From an uncultured Verrucomicrobiota bacterium (lineage in GTDB: Bacteria > Verrucomicrobiota > Verrucomicrobiia > Limisphaerales > CAIQOK01), in contig CAIQOK010000040.1 in assembly GCA_903873415.1 (NCBI GenBank), forward strand, positions 1-53,183: a stretch of DNA of 53,183 nucleotides, written 5' to 3'. Each line of letters starts with the position of its first letter. Position 1 is the first letter of the stretch. Position numbers and translations under genes: made by a program. Shown in pieces: positions 214-5,845 of the stretch. Below the pieces are notes generated by a model. The model worked only from the letters and a program-made list of their open reading frames with translations, ran no database searches and had not been told where the DNA came from.

Positions 214-2028
214 ATGGCGAAAACAAAGATTGTGGATTCCGGTTCAAAGGGGGGAAACGGCTTGGGATCATTGGCATCCGACGCTGTGTTGGCTGAGGGG
301 TTCAGAGGGGGGCGTCCCCGTGGGAAGCGCGCACTCCGATCCGTCCCGGCTCCTGTCTCGTTCGCTGCGAATTCTCCTTCGGCAGTTTGGAGTTCCGAGA
401 AGAGAGGCAACCGGCTGATTAGCGAGGTGGTCAAGGAACTGATTCTGTTGGCGCATGAGCAGGGGCATGTGACAGCCGACGACATCACGGAGGCGCTGGC
501 TGAGGCGAGTGCCGGTGCGGAGGGTTTGAAGGAGGTGCATAGCCAACTCCAACAGCTTGAGGTGGAAATTGTGGATTCGGGCGATCCGGGAGGGGGGGCA
601 TTGGAGGATCCGGTTGTTGACCGGGACCGGCTCGACATTCTCGACGACCCGGTGAAGATGTATCTCAAGCAAATGGGGCAGGTGCCGCTGCTGACCCGGG
701 AACAAGAGGTGGAGGTGTCCAAGCGAATTGAGACGGCGCAGGAGGAGGTGAAGCGAATTGTGCGCCGTTTGGGTTTCGCCGCTAAGGAACATCTCGCATT
801 GGCGGAAAGATTACTCTCCGATCCCCCTCGCGAAAGGTTTGATCGGGTCGTGTTGGATCAAAAGCTTGAAGACCGTTCCGGCCACCTGAGGCTTTTGGGG
901 CGATTGGTTGCGCAGGTTCGTGAAATGGACCGGGCGGTGGATGCCGCATATCTGGAGTGGGCGGGCGGTGCGGGCGGCCATGAGGCGGCGGAGTTGATGT
1001 CCCGGTTTCATGCGGCCGACCTCAAATTGCAGGGCTCTTTCGAGCGGTTCGCACTGAAACCGAAAATCATCGAGGAAATCGCGGTTGTGGCGGAGAATAT
1101 CCACGACAAGATCCAGTCCAGCCTGCGCAATGTGGAGGTCCTGAAAAGCCAGCCCGATTCCCTGGGGCGTCAGACCCTTCTTGATGCTGAGGAGATCAAG
1201 CTCCGGTCGTTGGAACAATTCGTGCGGATGCCCCGGGGGGATTATCTGGATGCTTTCAGCCGCTTGAAGCAGTTCACCGCGCAAGCCCATGCGGCCAAAA
1301 CCGAAATGGTCGAGGCCAACTTGCGCTTGGTCATCTCCATCGCCAAGAAACACACCAACCGGGGCCTTTCCTTTCTGGATCTGGTGCAGGAGGGCAATCT
1401 GGGATTGATGAAGGCCGTGGAGAAGTTCGAATACCGGCGCGGCTATAAATTCTCAACCTATTCCACCTGGTGGATTCGTCAGTCCATCACCCGCGCTCTG
1501 GCCGATCAGGCCCGGACCATCCGGATCCCGGTGCACATGATCGAAGTCATCAACAAGTTGATGCGCGTTCAAAAGCGTTTGCAACAGGATTACGGTCGGG
1601 AACCCACGCCGGAGGAGATTGCCGAGCAGATTCAGCTTCCGGTGGCCCGGGTGCGGGCCATTCTCAAAATGGCTCAGCAGCCCATCTCACTTCAAGCTCC
1701 CGTGGGGGACGGGGAGGATGCCAACGTCGGGGATTTCATCGAGGACCGGTCGGTGGAGAGTCCCTTTGATTTGGTCGGGTTCAGTCTTTTGAAGGACAAG
1801 CTTGGAGGGGTTCTGGCCAGTCTGAATGAACGCGAGCGGATGGTTTTGGAACTGCGCTTCGGGTTGGGGGAAGGCGGGGGGCGCACGCTTGAGGAGGTGG
1901 GCCGGCATTTCAGGGTGACCCGCGAGCGGATTCGGCAGATTGAGGCCAAGGCGCTGCGGAAGATGCGCCATCCCAGCCGCTTGCGACATTTACACGGGTT
2001 TCTAACGGCTGAAAAAAATGCGGAATAG
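214..2028 (+). CDS. rpoD: RNA polymerase primary sigma factor (RpoD/SigA type)
   Basis: Primary sigma-70 factor that directs core RNA polymerase to housekeeping promoters. An N-terminal basic stretch is followed by a region 1.1-like segment ([20 protein letters not shown]), region 1.2 ([20 protein letters not shown]), a long non-conserved insert, and region 2 with [30 protein letters not shown] and the promoter-melting segment [11 protein letters not shown]. Region 3 and a region 4 helix-turn-helix ([20 protein letters not shown]) follow. The 604-residue length and the presence of region 1.1 and the insert separate it from shorter stress sigma factors. The ATG at 214 was chosen because earlier in-frame starts lie inside or before the likely promoter. 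The gene stands alone, with 314 bases before the next one. The family assignment is certain. Confidence 0.96.
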
Positions 2029-2342
2029 CCGCAGGCCCGGGAGGGGGGCGAAAGGCGGAAAACCGGCGGCCGGCGGAGAAGAAAGAAGCGGCAAGTGATC
2101 GACCGGCTTAAAATCAAATCCGCGGTCATGTGGTTTTGGTCGTCTGAAAGACAGGGGCTATGCGGGGTTTCTCGCGGGCTGCGGGTTGGCCGGTTGTCTG
2201 ACTGCGATGTATCGGCGCGGTGAGTGTTCCAAGAAAATCCAGGGTTGCTTGCGGACGGTTGGGTGAGTCCATAAAGGTTGGCCTTTTCGTCAGTCCGAGG
2301 CTGACAGGCCAATGGGATTTGATAAGCTGGGGCCGCCGTATA
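2029..2342 (+). other. rpoD-rdgB intergenic region
   Basis: No credible gene is seen here. An open frame continuous with rdgB runs back to a GTG at 2220 but shows no family similarity upstream of the conserved pyrophosphatase start. The stretch holds a strong hairpin at 2278-2312 and an exact TATAAT at 2339-2344 with no good -35 partner. Confidence 0.6.
2278..2312 (+). promoter_or_regulatory. hairpin in the rdgB leader
   Basis: TTGGCCT (2278-2284) pairs perfectly with AGGCCAA (2306-2312). Nested inside, GTCAG (2289-2293) pairs with CTGAC (2301-2305) across a 7-base loop, leaving a one-sided TTTC bulge. No T-run follows, so it is not an obvious intrinsic terminator for rpoD. It could be a structured leader or a transcript-end stabiliser. 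Confidence 0.4.
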
Positions 2343-3032
2343 ATGAATGCGATGCCGCCCATGCCCACAGTTGTCCTTGCCACCCGCAATGCCCACAAGG
2401 TGCTTGAAATCCGCGCATTGCTCGGTCAGGCGTCGAGCTGCCTGACACTCAACGATTTTTCGGAGGCGCCTGATGTGGTGGAGGATGCCGGCAGCTTTGC
2501 TGGGAATGCGACCAAGAAAGCCGTTGAGCTGGCTTGGTGGTTGGCCTGTTTGCCGAAAACGGAAGGGGCTGGGCGCTCTTTGCTGGTTCTGGCCGATGAT
2601 TCCGGTTTGGAGGTCGATGCGTTGAATGGTGCGCCAGGGGTCTTTTCCGCCCGGTTTTCCGCCCCAGACGGGAGTGGAAACGCTCCGGATGCAGACAACA
2701 ACGCGAAGCTGCTTCGGCTGCTTCAGGGCGTTCCTTCCGCCAGCCGGACGGCGCGGTTCCGTTGCGTGATTGCGCTGACGCGGGTTCCGGATTTTTTTGG
2801 TGGTGCGGCCGGGAAGCGGATGGGTGATTTGCAGGCGGTGACCCGTGTTTTTGAAGGGGTTTGTGAGGGGCGGATTGAGGCGGCGGCCCGGGGGCAAGGC
2901 GGGTTTGGCTACGATCCGCTCTTTGTTCCGGACGGTTTTGAGCAGTGCTTTGCCGAGCTGGGCGGGGAGGTGAAGAACCGGATCAGCCACCGCGCCCGGG
3001 CTTTGGAAAAACTCCGTGTGGCAGGGGTTTGA
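2343..3032 (+). CDS. rdgB: XTP/dITP diphosphatase (RdgB/HAM1 family)
   Basis: Predicted non-canonical purine NTP pyrophosphatase. It hydrolyses dITP, XTP and similar to the monophosphate plus PPi, keeping deaminated purines out of DNA and RNA; cytosolic. The N-terminal signature VVLATRNAHKVLEIRALL, the central LADDSGLEVDALNGAPGVFSAR motif and the C-terminal GFGYDPLFVPDG and SHRARAL motifs are all family landmarks in the right order. Three in-frame ATGs (2343, 2352, 2361) compete. The last one aligns best with usual RdgB N-termini, and an exact TATAAT at 2339-2344 overlaps the first. The product is slightly longer (223-229 residues) than the usual roughly 200 because of short insertions. The family call is certain; the start is not. 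Confidence 0.93.
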   Translation: MNAMPPMPTVVLATRNAHKVLEIRALLGQASSCLTLNDFSEAPDVVEDAGSFAGNATKKAVELAWWLACLPKTEGAGRSLLVLADDSGLEVDALNGAPGVFSARFSAPDGSGNAPDADNNAKLLRLLQGVPSASRTARFRCVIALTRVPDFFGGAAGKRMGDLQAVTRVFEGVCEGRIEAAARGQGGFGYDPLFVPDGFEQCFAELGGEVKNRISHRARALEKLRVAGV

Positions 3033-3109
3033 TTTTGCGCTGCCTCTTCGGCTATCCGCCTTCCGGGTCTGGATGAGGTTGGCTTTTCGGGTTTGGCATG
3101 GCTTTGCGT

Positions 3110-3138
3110 TTGACCTCGGGGATCCGCCCGAATACTAT
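3110..3138 (+). promoter_or_regulatory. putative promoter of the leuA leader
   Basis: TTGACC (3110-3115), a 17-base spacer, then TACTAT (3133-3138). Initiation would fall near 3145, only about three bases before the leader-peptide ATG at 3148. The leader peptide may therefore be translated from a leaderless or nearly leaderless transcript. Pattern match only. Confidence 0.45.
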
Positions 3139-3147
3139 GGAACCGCG

Positions 3148-3210
3148 ATGAGCGATTTGAACCTTCTGCTTAAGTGGATGCTAACGGGCAGCATGGCGGT
3201 GGGGTTCTGA
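3148..3210 (+). CDS. leuL: leucine-rich leader peptide of leuA (attenuation)
   Basis: A 20-codon frame, MSDLNLLLKWMLTGSMAVGF, lies between rdgB and leuA. Five of its 20 codons are leucine (TTG at 3157, CTT 3163, CTG 3166, CTT 3169, CTA 3181), three of them consecutive. It is followed 16 bases downstream by a strong intrinsic terminator, and then by leuA. This is the layout of an amino-acid-biosynthesis leader peptide. Ribosome stalling at the leucine codons would signal leucine-tRNA shortage. The peptide itself probably has no other function. The symbol is used by analogy with known leuA leaders. Confidence 0.7.
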   Translation: MSDLNLLLKWMLTGSMAVGF

Positions 3211-3239
3211 TGCGTTGTTGTTTTTCAAACCCACTGCCG
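3159..3239 (+). promoter_or_regulatory. antiterminator / alternative hairpins of the leuA attenuator
   Basis: Three segments compete. Segment 1, GAACCTT (3159-3165, within the leucine codons), can pair with GGGGTTC (3201-3207; two G-T pairs). Segment 2, GGCGGTGGG (3195-3203), can pair with CCCACTGCC (3230-3238; one G-T pair), which is the 5' arm of the terminator. Segment 2 resembles the terminator 3' arm (GGCGGTGGG at 3244-3252), as expected for an antiterminator. A ribosome stalled at the leucine codons would cover segment 1 and free segment 2. A ribosome reaching the stop at 3208 would cover segment 2 and let the terminator form. Confidence 0.65.
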
Positions 3240-3259
3240 AAGCGGCGGTGGGTTTTTTT
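3227..3259 (+). terminator. intrinsic terminator (attenuator) before leuA
   Basis: AAACCCACTGCCG (3227-3239) pairs with CGGCGGTGGGTTT (3243-3255) through 13 base pairs including one G-T, with an AAG loop and a run of seven T at 3253-3259. It lies between the leader peptide and leuA, so it most likely controls read-through into leuA. Ending the rdgB transcript could be an additional role. Confidence 0.85.
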
Positions 3260-3304
3260 GTTTGCCCGGCCGTCGCGGGTTAATTAAGTAAAAGGCCAAG
3301 ACTC

Positions 3305-4966
3305 ATGCTCAAAGATCCGTCACAGAAATACCGGCCGTTTCCGCCGGTCTCGTTGCCCGACCGGCAGTGGCCCGAGCGCATTCTCAGCGCCGCGCCTCGC
3401 TGGTGTAGCGTGGACCTGCGCGATGGCAACCAGGCTCTGGCCGTGCCGATGAACGTGTCGCAGAAACTCGAGCTTTTCCAGACTCTAGTTAAAATCGGGT
3501 TCAAGGAGATCGAGGTGGGCTTCCCATCGGCGTCCAACACGGAGTTTGCCTTCAACCGCCGGCTCGTTGAGGAGGGGCGCGTTCCGGAGGACGTCTGGCT
3601 CCAGGTGCTGGTGCAGGCGCGGGAAGATTTGATCGAACGCACCTTTGATTCCTTGGTTGGGGCCAAGCGGGCGATCATCCATATGTACAACTCCACCTCC
3701 CCGGCCCAGCGCCGCGTGGTCTTCGGCAAGTCGAAGGAGGAGATCAAGGCCATTGCGGTGCATGGGGCAAAGCTGATCCGGGACCGTTTGCCCCGGTTGC
3801 AGGGGACCGAGGTCCAGCTCGAGTATTCGCCGGAGAGTTTTTCGGCGACCGAGGTGGGGTTTGCCAAGGAGATTTCCGAGGCGGTGATGGAGGTGTGGCA
3901 GCCGACGGCGGAGCGGAAGATGATTTTGAACCTGCCCGACACGGTGGAAGTGGCGACGCCCAATGTGTATGCCGACCAGATAGAATGGATGTGCCGGAAC
4001 ATTAAGAACCGGGAGGCTTTGATCCTGAGTCTGCACACGCACAACGACCGTTCGACAGGGGTGGCGGCGACTGAGCTGGGGCTGCTTGCCGGGGCCGATC
4101 GAGTGGAGGGGACGCTTTTTGGCAACGGCGAGCGGACGGGGAATCTGGATCTTGTGACGCTGGCCCTGAACCTCTACATGCAGGGGGTGAGTCCGCAACT
4201 GGAGCTGGGAAATCTCAACGCCATCCGCGAGGTGTATGAGCGTTGCACCGGGATGAGTGTGCCGCCGCGCCAGCCGTATGCCGGGGAATTGGTGTTCAGC
4301 GCCTTCAGCGGCTCGCATCAGGACGCCATCAAGAAGGGGTTGGCGGAATGGTCTCGGGGACAGCGCACGCATTGGGACGTGCCGTATCTGACGATCGACC
4401 CAGCGGACATCGGGAGGGAATATCGCGAAGTGATCCGGGTCAATTCCCAGTCGGGCAAGGGCGGGGTGGCGTATTTGCTGGAGAGCGAGTTTGGCATTGA
4501 GCTGCCCAAGGACATGCAGCGGGAGTTTGGGCCCATTGCCAACGATGCCGTGGACCGCTTGGGCCGCGAAGTCAGCGGGGCGGAGTTGAAGGCTATGTTC
4601 TGGGGCGAGTATGTTGAGCGTTCGGCACCCTGGCGTTTGGAGTCGTTTGAGGCGGAGAGCAAGAATGGCATGGTCCGGTGTCACGCGGTGCTGTTGCAGG
4701 ACGGGCAGCCGCTGGCTCTGGCCGGAGAGGGCAACGGGCCGTTGGCGGCGCTGGTGCATGGGTTTGGACAGTGCGGAGTGCCCCGCTTTGAGATTGCAAA
4801 TTACAGCCAGCATTCATTGGGATCCGGGGAGGCCGCCGCGGCCATCGCCTATATCCAGTTGAAATGGTCCGGGGGCCGGACCCTGTGGGGGGCCGGGGTG
4901 GATACAAACATTGAGCTGGCGTCCGTGCGTGCCGTGCTGAGCGCCTTGAACCGCAGCTGCGTTTGA
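3305..4966 (+). CDS. leuA: 2-isopropylmalate synthase (long, actinobacterial-type LeuA)
   Basis: First committed enzyme of leucine synthesis: acetyl-CoA plus 2-oxoisovalerate gives 2-isopropylmalate. The N-terminal half is a DRE-TIM barrel with SVDLRDGNQAL (residues about 34-44, metal and substrate site) and the second metal motif LHTHNDRSTGVAATELGL, followed by GTLFGNGERTGN. The C-terminal part corresponds to the linker and the leucine-binding regulatory domain (CHAVLLQDGQPLALAGEGNG). The 553 residues and the FPPVSLPDRQWPE N-terminus match the long LeuA type known from actinobacteria. AAAGG sits nine bases before the ATG. The gene is preceded by a leucine-leader attenuator, so feedback inhibition and attenuation probably both act. 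Confidence 0.95.
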   Translation: MLKDPSQKYRPFPPVSLPDRQWPERILSAAPRWCSVDLRDGNQALAVPMNVSQKLELFQTLVKIGFKEIEVGFPSASNTEFAFNRRLVEEGRVPEDVWLQVLVQAREDLIERTFDSLVGAKRAIIHMYNSTSPAQRRVVFGKSKEEIKAIAVHGAKLIRDRLPRLQGTEVQLEYSPESFSATEVGFAKEISEAVMEVWQPTAERKMILNLPDTVEVATPNVYADQIEWMCRNIKNREALILSLHTHNDRSTGVAATELGLLAGADRVEGTLFGNGERTGNLDLVTLALNLYMQGVSPQLELGNLNAIREVYERCTGMSVPPRQPYAGELVFSAFSGSHQDAIKKGLAEWSRGQRTHWDVPYLTIDPADIGREYREVIRVNSQSGKGGVAYLLESEFGIELPKDMQREFGPIANDAVDRLGREVSGAELKAMFWGEYVERSAPWRLESFEAESKNGMVRCHAVLLQDGQPLALAGEGNGPLAALVHGFGQCGVPRFEIANYSQHSLGSGEAAAAIAYIQLKWSGGRTLWGAGVDTNIELASVRAVLSALNRSCV

Positions 4967-5008
4967 ACTTTTCATCGGACCCGGATCCGGATTAAGGTTG
5001 ATTCGATT

Positions 5009-5845
5009 ATGAAAAGATATGGAGTCTGTTTTTTCCTCACGTTGGCGCTGGTTTGGCCCGGGCCGATTCGCTCCCAACCTGCCGTGTCTCCCGCCGCGGT
5101 GCCGGCTCCCGCCGCCAAGGGGCTGGATGGTGTGATCTGCTGGGACGCCTCCAGCAAGCGCGTCACCGTCAATGCCGGAACACCCGAGGCTCATTACGTT
5201 TTCAATCTCACCAACATCTCCAGCGCCAATGTGGTCATCAACAGCGCTGTGGGATCGTGCGGTTGCACGGTGGCCCGATTGCCCGTCCAGCCTTGGACTC
5301 TGGGGCCCGGTTCCAACGGCCAGATCAATGTCACCATGAACCTTGCGGGCAAGTCCGGCACGGTCCCCAAGATTGTCACGGTCAGCACCGATCGTGGGAA
5401 CACCCAGCTCTCAGTCACGACGACGATTGTGCCCGCGTCGGAGGCGCCCGGAGCGGCGGCGGGCATGGACCGCTCTTCCAACCAGAAACTGGCGCTTGCC
5501 GACCGGCAGGCGGTTTTCAAGGGCGATTGCGCCCGCTGCCATGTTCTGCCCACCGTGGGAAAGATGGGGGCTGAACTCTATCAAGCGGCCTGTGGCATCT
5601 GTCACGAGGCGGAGAACCGGGCTTCCATGGTTCCCAATTTGCACGCCCTCAACAAGCCGACCGACTCGGAGTATTGGAGGAACTGGATTGCGCAGGGCAA
5701 ACCCGGCAGCCTCATGCCTGCTTTCAGCATGGCCCAGGGCGGGGTTTTGACCGACGATCAAATCGGTTCGCTGGCGACTTATCTTTCGGCTGCCATTCCG
5801 TCGCGGCCCGCCGTGCCAGCGTTTAGACTTCCCTCGCAGCATTGA
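5009..5845 (+). CDS. exported DUF1573 - cytochrome c fusion protein
   Basis: A signal peptide (about 1-22) and a proline/alanine linker precede a DUF1573-type beta domain (about 45-142) with its characteristic SCGCT motif at 83-87. A linker then leads to a class I-like cytochrome c region with two haem motifs only 21 residues apart, CARCH (174-178) and CGICH (195-199). SLMPAF supplies a likely axial methionine at 236. A C-terminal helix, LTDDQIGSLATYLS, is typical of cytochrome c. It probably acts in the periplasm as an electron carrier. Whether the first CxxCH binds its own haem is unclear given the short spacing. It begins 42 bases after leuA in the same direction, with no terminator seen between them. 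The exact partner is unknown. Confidence 0.8.
   Translation: MKRYGVCFFLTLALVWPGPIRSQPAVSPAAVPAPAAKGLDGVICWDASSKRVTVNAGTPEAHYVFNLTNISSANVVINSAVGSCGCTVARLPVQPWTLGPGSNGQINVTMNLAGKSGTVPKIVTVSTDRGNTQLSVTTTIVPASEAPGAAAGMDRSSNQKLALADRQAVFKGDCARCHVLPTVGKMGAELYQAACGICHEAENRASMVPNLHALNKPTDSEYWRNWIAQGKPGSLMPAFSMAQGGVLTDDQIGSLATYLSAAIPSRPAVPAFRLPSQH

Follow-up and report, generated by a model that had tools for sequence, protein, structure and literature searches.

A probable leucine attenuator with an apparently near-leaderless leader peptide ahead of leuA in Limisphaerales

The leader that precedes leuA in a 53,183-nucleotide stretch of DNA from an uncultured Verrucomicrobiota bacterium (hereafter the window) very probably acts on this gene as a ribosome-mediated transcription attenuator sensing leucyl-tRNA, as judged from comparative sequence analysis and modelled folding. 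For the order as a whole, we consider it likely that leuA is governed by leucine and ilvB by valine through attenuators whose peptides are translated leaderlessly, that the leucine leader works for two LeuA enzymes that are only distantly related, and that leaderless initiation, mostly at GTG in the leucine leaders, is how ribosomes ordinarily enter the sensor. Such a mechanism is of the classical type, and leaderless leader peptides have precedents in Actinobacteria and Sinorhizobium; as far as we searched, the novelty appears to lie in the RNA family, in its phylum, and in a leaderless design shared across the order. Most of what has been charted of amino-acid attenuation comes from Proteobacteria, Firmicutes, and Actinobacteria. 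A leucine attenuator spread through an entire order would provide a concrete regulatory model for the large, little-studied Verrucomicrobiota and could help to annotate how leuA and ilvB are controlled in hundreds of uncultured genomes.

Architecture and folding of the leuA leader

A preliminary description of this DNA had claimed a TTGACC/TACTAT promoter with 17-base spacing, a 20-codon peptide with five leucine codons, and a 13-bp terminator with seven T ahead of leuA, and all of these were found where it had placed them (Table 1); two protein profiles supported the identity of leuA itself. Leucine accounts for 5 of the 20 leader codons in the window (TTG 3157, CTT 3163, CTG 3166, CTT 3169, and CTA 3181, by direct reading), and the intrinsic terminator ahead of leuA is a 13-pair stem (3227-3239/3243-3255) with a run of seven T. 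Between 2000 and 5200, the sole promoter-like (sigma-70-like) site was the one at 3110-3138, and the longest terminator-like stem was at 3227-3255. The upstream gene, which encodes an XTP/dITP diphosphatase, ends at 3032, about 80 bases ahead of the leader promoter. The closest named relatives of the window LeuA belong to Verrucomicrobia subdivision 3 / Limisphaerales.

Table 1. Positions of the leuA leader elements in the window, and of the ilvB leader in the same genome.
Feature	Position	Strand	Basis or remark
-35 element TTGACC	3110..3115	+	Sequence read directly; TTGAC here in 93/103 homologous leaders
-10 element TACTAT	3133..3138	+	17-base spacer to -35; TA...T kept in relatives
Predicted transcription start	3145..3145 (+/-3)	+	Placed from the promoter, 7 bases past the -10 box
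Leader peptide ORF MSDLNLLLKWMLTGSMAVGF*, ATG 3148, TGA 3208-3210	3148..3210	+	NLNLLL..ALL..AAVGF pattern kept in relatives
Segment 1, overlapping the Leu codon run; partner segment 2	3159..3170	+	Folding; 1:2 co-variation
Segment 2, last codons ahead of the stop; partner 1 or 3	3195..3207	+	Folding, co-variation
Segment 3; partner 2 (antiterminator) or 4 (terminator)	3227..3239	+	Folding, co-variation
Segment 4, 3' arm of the intrinsic terminator	3243..3255	+	Folding, co-variation
Terminator T tract, seven T	3253..3259	+	Direct reading
leuA, 2-isopropylmalate synthase, long (TIGR00970 / NF002991) type, regulated gene	3305..4966	+	Both profiles over cut-off
ilvB leader ORF	~6636-6710 of contig G000:C139		Valine-rich, leaderless-looking

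The RNA from 3145 to 3260, for which the preliminary description had proposed a folding analysis, folded with -49.1 kcal/mol (z = -4.4 against 200 shuffles), and its free fold consisted of segment 1 paired with segment 2 (3159-3165/3201-3207 plus 3166-3170/3195-3199) together with the 3:4 terminator. Constrained folding with ViennaRNA indicated that a ribosome footprint blocked at any of the leucine codons in the window shifted the predicted fold to 2:3 (3195-3203/3230-3238), while a ribosome modelled at the stop codon left 3:4 in place. The 1:2 and 2:3 pairings that had been claimed beforehand were thereby reproduced, the one by free and the other by constrained folding, and the claimed geometry of stalling-dependent attenuation was upheld in the model. 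A leucine-rich ORF, mutually exclusive pairings, a terminator, and, in the folding model, the logic of stall and stop are all found here, which would place the leader among the ribosome-mediated transcription attenuators.

In the mechanism that we propose, RNA polymerase would begin transcription at the leader peptide's start codon or a few bases upstream of it, which would oblige the ribosome to load on a leaderless or near-leaderless 5' end that carries no Shine-Dalgarno sequence. When leucine is short, the ribosome would stall in the leucine run (3157-3171, or at 3181) and cover segment 1; segment 2 would then pair with segment 3, the terminator would be blocked, and leuA would be transcribed. 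With ample leucine, the ribosome would reach the stop at 3208 and cover segment 2, and 3:4 would terminate transcription at 3253-3259. If the leader is not translated at all, 1:2 and 3:4 would both form and transcription would also stop. Because the equilibrium terminator (about -25 kcal/mol) beats the antiterminator (about -20), induction would need 2:3 to form first. Since initiation seems to take place on a leaderless GTG or ATG, these leaders would be a natural test system for the speed of leaderless initiation relative to RNA polymerase.

Conservation and co-variation in the order

We sampled 293 genomes from 118 genera of the order, which we take to be Limisphaerales from named relatives; 150 of these genomes encode long-type LeuA. 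Upstream DNA was read for about 110 long-type leuA loci, and 103 leaders were parsed automatically; the nine unparsed loci fell at an assembly gap or at contig ends, had leaders that were odd or degenerate, or, in a few cases, seemed to lack one. A covariance search in relatives had been suggested in the preliminary description, and a covariance model (R1) built from the leuA leader and run over all 293 genomes found the leader in 251 of them, in 142 of the 154 good genomes, and in 109 of the 118 genera. The same description had made its reading depend on the leucine codons and the alternative pairings being kept in relatives, and both proved to be decisively conserved. Searched across the phylum, the model gave just 5 weak matches outside the order. 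By eye, two of these (L196, L197) looked like plain terminators. The other three looked like different attenuators, ahead of ilvB-like genes (L195 in G437, L198 in G521) and ahead of leuA (L199 in G642) in other lineages of the phylum; they had terminators and short ORFs that were rich in Ile/Leu/Val or contained Leu.

The promoter is conserved. In the 103 leaders, the -35 base frequencies were T.98, T 1.0, G 1.0, A.92, and C.97, an A-rich block lay directly upstream, and the -10 box followed as TA...T at a distance of 16-18 bases. An exact TTGAC was present 27-40 bases ahead of the start codon in 93 of the 103 loci, as opposed to 0.011 expected per locus from the remainder of the same sequences, although the TTGAC and promoter-spacing statistics are somewhat inflated because start codons were selected with a score that included the promoter. 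The leader ORF had 20-26 codons, typically reading VNxNLNLLLxNALLxxAAVGF, with a mean of 6.3 leucines (28% of leader codons, compared with 10% in the leuA of the window). In the sister genome (G001), for example, the arrangement was TTGACG-16-TAAAGT-6-GTG and the peptide was VNMNLNLLLTNALLLNSAAAGF. An ATTT block downstream of the leader stop and ahead of segment 3 (columns 116-119 of alignment A1) was also kept in most leaders; it lies outside every predicted pairing and is perhaps linked to pausing.

The folding logic extended to the relatives. Modelled stalling at leucine codons in the 103 loci led to 2:3 in 99% of cases, against 44% in shuffled leaders in which the non-leucine letters had been permuted, and a ribosome modelled at the stop led to 3:4 in 100%; 3:4 survived leader shuffling too, because it is outside the shuffled part. 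The first base of the stop codon was a median of 22 bases from the terminator stem (segment 3) in these 103 leaders, and segment 3 should therefore be clear of a ribosome at the stop.

To compare native pairings with hybrids in which one segment came from another species, we ran a swap test on segment energies with 5000 permutations. Native combinations were more stable than swapped ones for 3:4 (-25.6 vs -22.5 kcal/mol), 2:3 (-21.2 vs -19.7), and 1:2 (-23.3 vs -21.8), and in each case 0 of 5000 permutations reached the native advantage. No native advantage appeared in this test for the control pairings 2:4 and 1:3, whose segments have the same ancestry but should not pair. Kinship inflates some of these statistics, which was countered by the control pairings and by a non-redundant set: among 22 leaders less than 72% alike, p was 5e-5, 1.5e-4, and 5e-5 for 3:4, 2:3, and 1:2, and 0.24 and 0.25 for the controls. 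Column by column in the MAFFT alignment A1, changes on both sides occurred in 7 of 11 pairs of 2:3 and in 6 of 12 pairs of 3:4, and in most measures the co-variation of these columns was unmatched by any of 500 shuffles.

Leader-bearing genomes exceeded long-LeuA genomes in the order by at least 101. In 17 of 20 loci fetched from genomes that lack long LeuA or carry an additional leader, phmmer indicated that the leader precedes the other LeuA type, and TIGR00973 was confirmed for the four other-type LeuA tested. One genome (G123) encodes both enzymes, each with a leader of its own (L115, L242). The leader thus stays with either of two distantly related LeuA, which is strong evidence from gene context that leucine is its signal. 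Its occurrence before two LeuA types (L231-L249) suggests that one gene replaced the other while the regulatory element was kept, or that the leader was duplicated. A second leuA-like gene in the window's genome (G000:C67) was set aside as a citramalate synthase with no visible leader. Before leuA in Opitutales/Verrucomicrobiales and Alphaproteobacteria (L012, L013, L018-L020, L043, L066, L074), another kind of short leader recurred that carries the motif CTNCGACTTA (Leu-Arg-Leu, CGA codon), and CTTCGACTT also occurs in many Limisphaerales leaders.

Start of the leader peptide and rival explanations

The start codon was GTG in 83 and ATG in 20 of the 103 leaders, and the distance from the -10 box to the start codon was 6-10 bases throughout. 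In relatives, the promoter-based prediction usually puts the start codon at +1 or +2. For the window, where this distance is 9 bases, the prediction is about three untranslated bases, just as the preliminary description had it; its message may carry these three bases rather than being strictly leaderless. Shine-Dalgarno sequences were not enriched before the leader start in the 103 leaders (SD-like matches 0.18, vs 0.20 at random places), and the SD-like score of the leuA genes themselves was 0.10. Given the short, narrow promoter-to-start distance and the lack of Shine-Dalgarno enrichment, leaderless translation of the leader peptide looks like an order-wide trait, and the case for it is much stronger in the relatives than in the window, where it is tentative.

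The same attenuator could instead have its peptide translated from a longer 5' UTR, off a promoter further upstream. The ATG of the window, some three bases past a +1 that is itself placed from the promoter alone, leaves room for this reading; nevertheless, we regard it as unlikely, as 2000-5200 contains no other promoter that we could find and the narrow promoter-to-start distance in 103 loci goes with an absence of Shine-Dalgarno enrichment. A quite unlikely addition to attenuation is that the terminated RNA or the peptide also acts in trans, like rnTrpL/peTrpL of Sinorhizobium meliloti: termination would yield a small, near-leaderless mRNA of some 115 bases, similar to rnTrpL (PMC7298713), and the AAVGF ends of the peptide are widely conserved, but these ends are explained by the RNA pairing that they encode (segments 1 and 2), and no trans target is known.

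That 3227-3259 is just the terminator of the XTP/dITP diphosphatase gene, with a leucine-rich ORF arising by chance, has a next to negligible probability. Terminators are common between genes of the same direction, and the upstream gene does end shortly before the promoter; however, leader, promoter, and segments 1 and 2 are conserved and co-vary, and the leader travels with either leuA type, and conservation with co-variation has already refuted the terminator-only reading. The leader is also strongly structured and ends in a terminator, as would a riboswitch or T-box that binds a ligand, protein, or tRNA and merely overlaps an incidental ORF. This is very improbable, since the reading frame and the leucine enrichment are conserved and segment 2 lies precisely in the stretch that a ribosome at the stop codon would cover. 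Furthermore, no Rfam 15 family, T-box included, matched the window at gathering score, nor did anything fall below E = 0.3 at a permissive threshold, and riboswitch or T-box identity was rejected on this ground.

A valine-rich counterpart and relation to known systems

By its sequence, the leader of ilvB is a second attenuator of the same design in the window's genome, rich in valine. The gene (G000:C139, L260) is preceded by TTGACC-17-TAGGAT-6-ATG with the peptide MLQKFRHLARVVVVGCDAVGACRN*, and the terminator reads AACCCACGGCT...GGTCGTGGGTTTTTT. Among 18 further ilvB loci that we examined, 17 had a Val-rich leader, and in almost every case the promoter was just as close to the start codon. 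The ilvB leader peptides commonly end in (A)VGxCR. ORF scans of 20 genomes found no Trp-rich leader before trpE and no convincing His-rich leader before hisG.

The gammaproteobacterial Leu_leader, exemplified by E. coli leuL, combines a leucine codon run, alternative hairpins, and an intrinsic terminator before leuA, and in enteric bacteria this leader carries a ribosome-binding site in a 5' UTR. Attenuation across bacteria was reportedly treated by Lopatovskaya et al. in 2010. The leader described here resembles E. coli leuL in its leucine run, alternative hairpins, and intrinsic terminator ahead of leuA, but unlike the Rfam Leu_leader, the window had no match to any Rfam family. In Streptomyces lividans, leuL1 before leuA and leuL2 before leuS are leaderless, by RNA-seq in the case of leuL1 (PMC8079986). 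Our leader is like leuL1 in being a short Leu-rich peptide before leuA; in contrast to the S. lividans leuA leader, which lacks a typical terminator, it has a classical terminator/antiterminator pair. The LEU element of Actinobacteria, a pseudoknot leuA leader (PMC1262725), has a base stem between leucine codons and the leuA SD box and usually lacks a terminator. Here, the partner of the leucine run is segment 2, within the leader itself, and there is a terminator, which sets the leader apart from the LEU element.

In Corynebacterium diphtheriae, the ilvB leader peptide is leaderless (PMC5784534), and in Sinorhizobium meliloti, the trpL transcript (rnTrpL) begins directly with the ATG that opens the leader ORF (PMC7298713). 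Transcription attenuation of a biosynthetic operon is common to trpL and the present leader; trpL differs in sensing tryptophan, in its 14-residue peptide, in belonging to Alphaproteobacteria, and in its known trans functions. Nothing relevant on attenuation in Verrucomicrobia was found in the literature, with limited coverage of subscription journals, and Verrucomicrobia go unmentioned in the main text of a 2010 terminator survey (PMC2965389).

Outside the phylum, one contig labelled Nitriliruptoraceae (L033, SKTG01000303.1), which may be mis-binned, carried a leuA leader and terminator like those of a Spirochaetaceae locus (L037). Possible leaderless leucine leaders were also seen in Oxalobacteraceae (L040, L048, L049, L053), Spirochaetes (L037, L044, L047), and Gammaproteobacteria (L060, L067, L080), where short Leu-rich ORFs before long-type leuA begin 6-8 bases past a promoter with TTGAC and a -10 box 17/18 bases apart.
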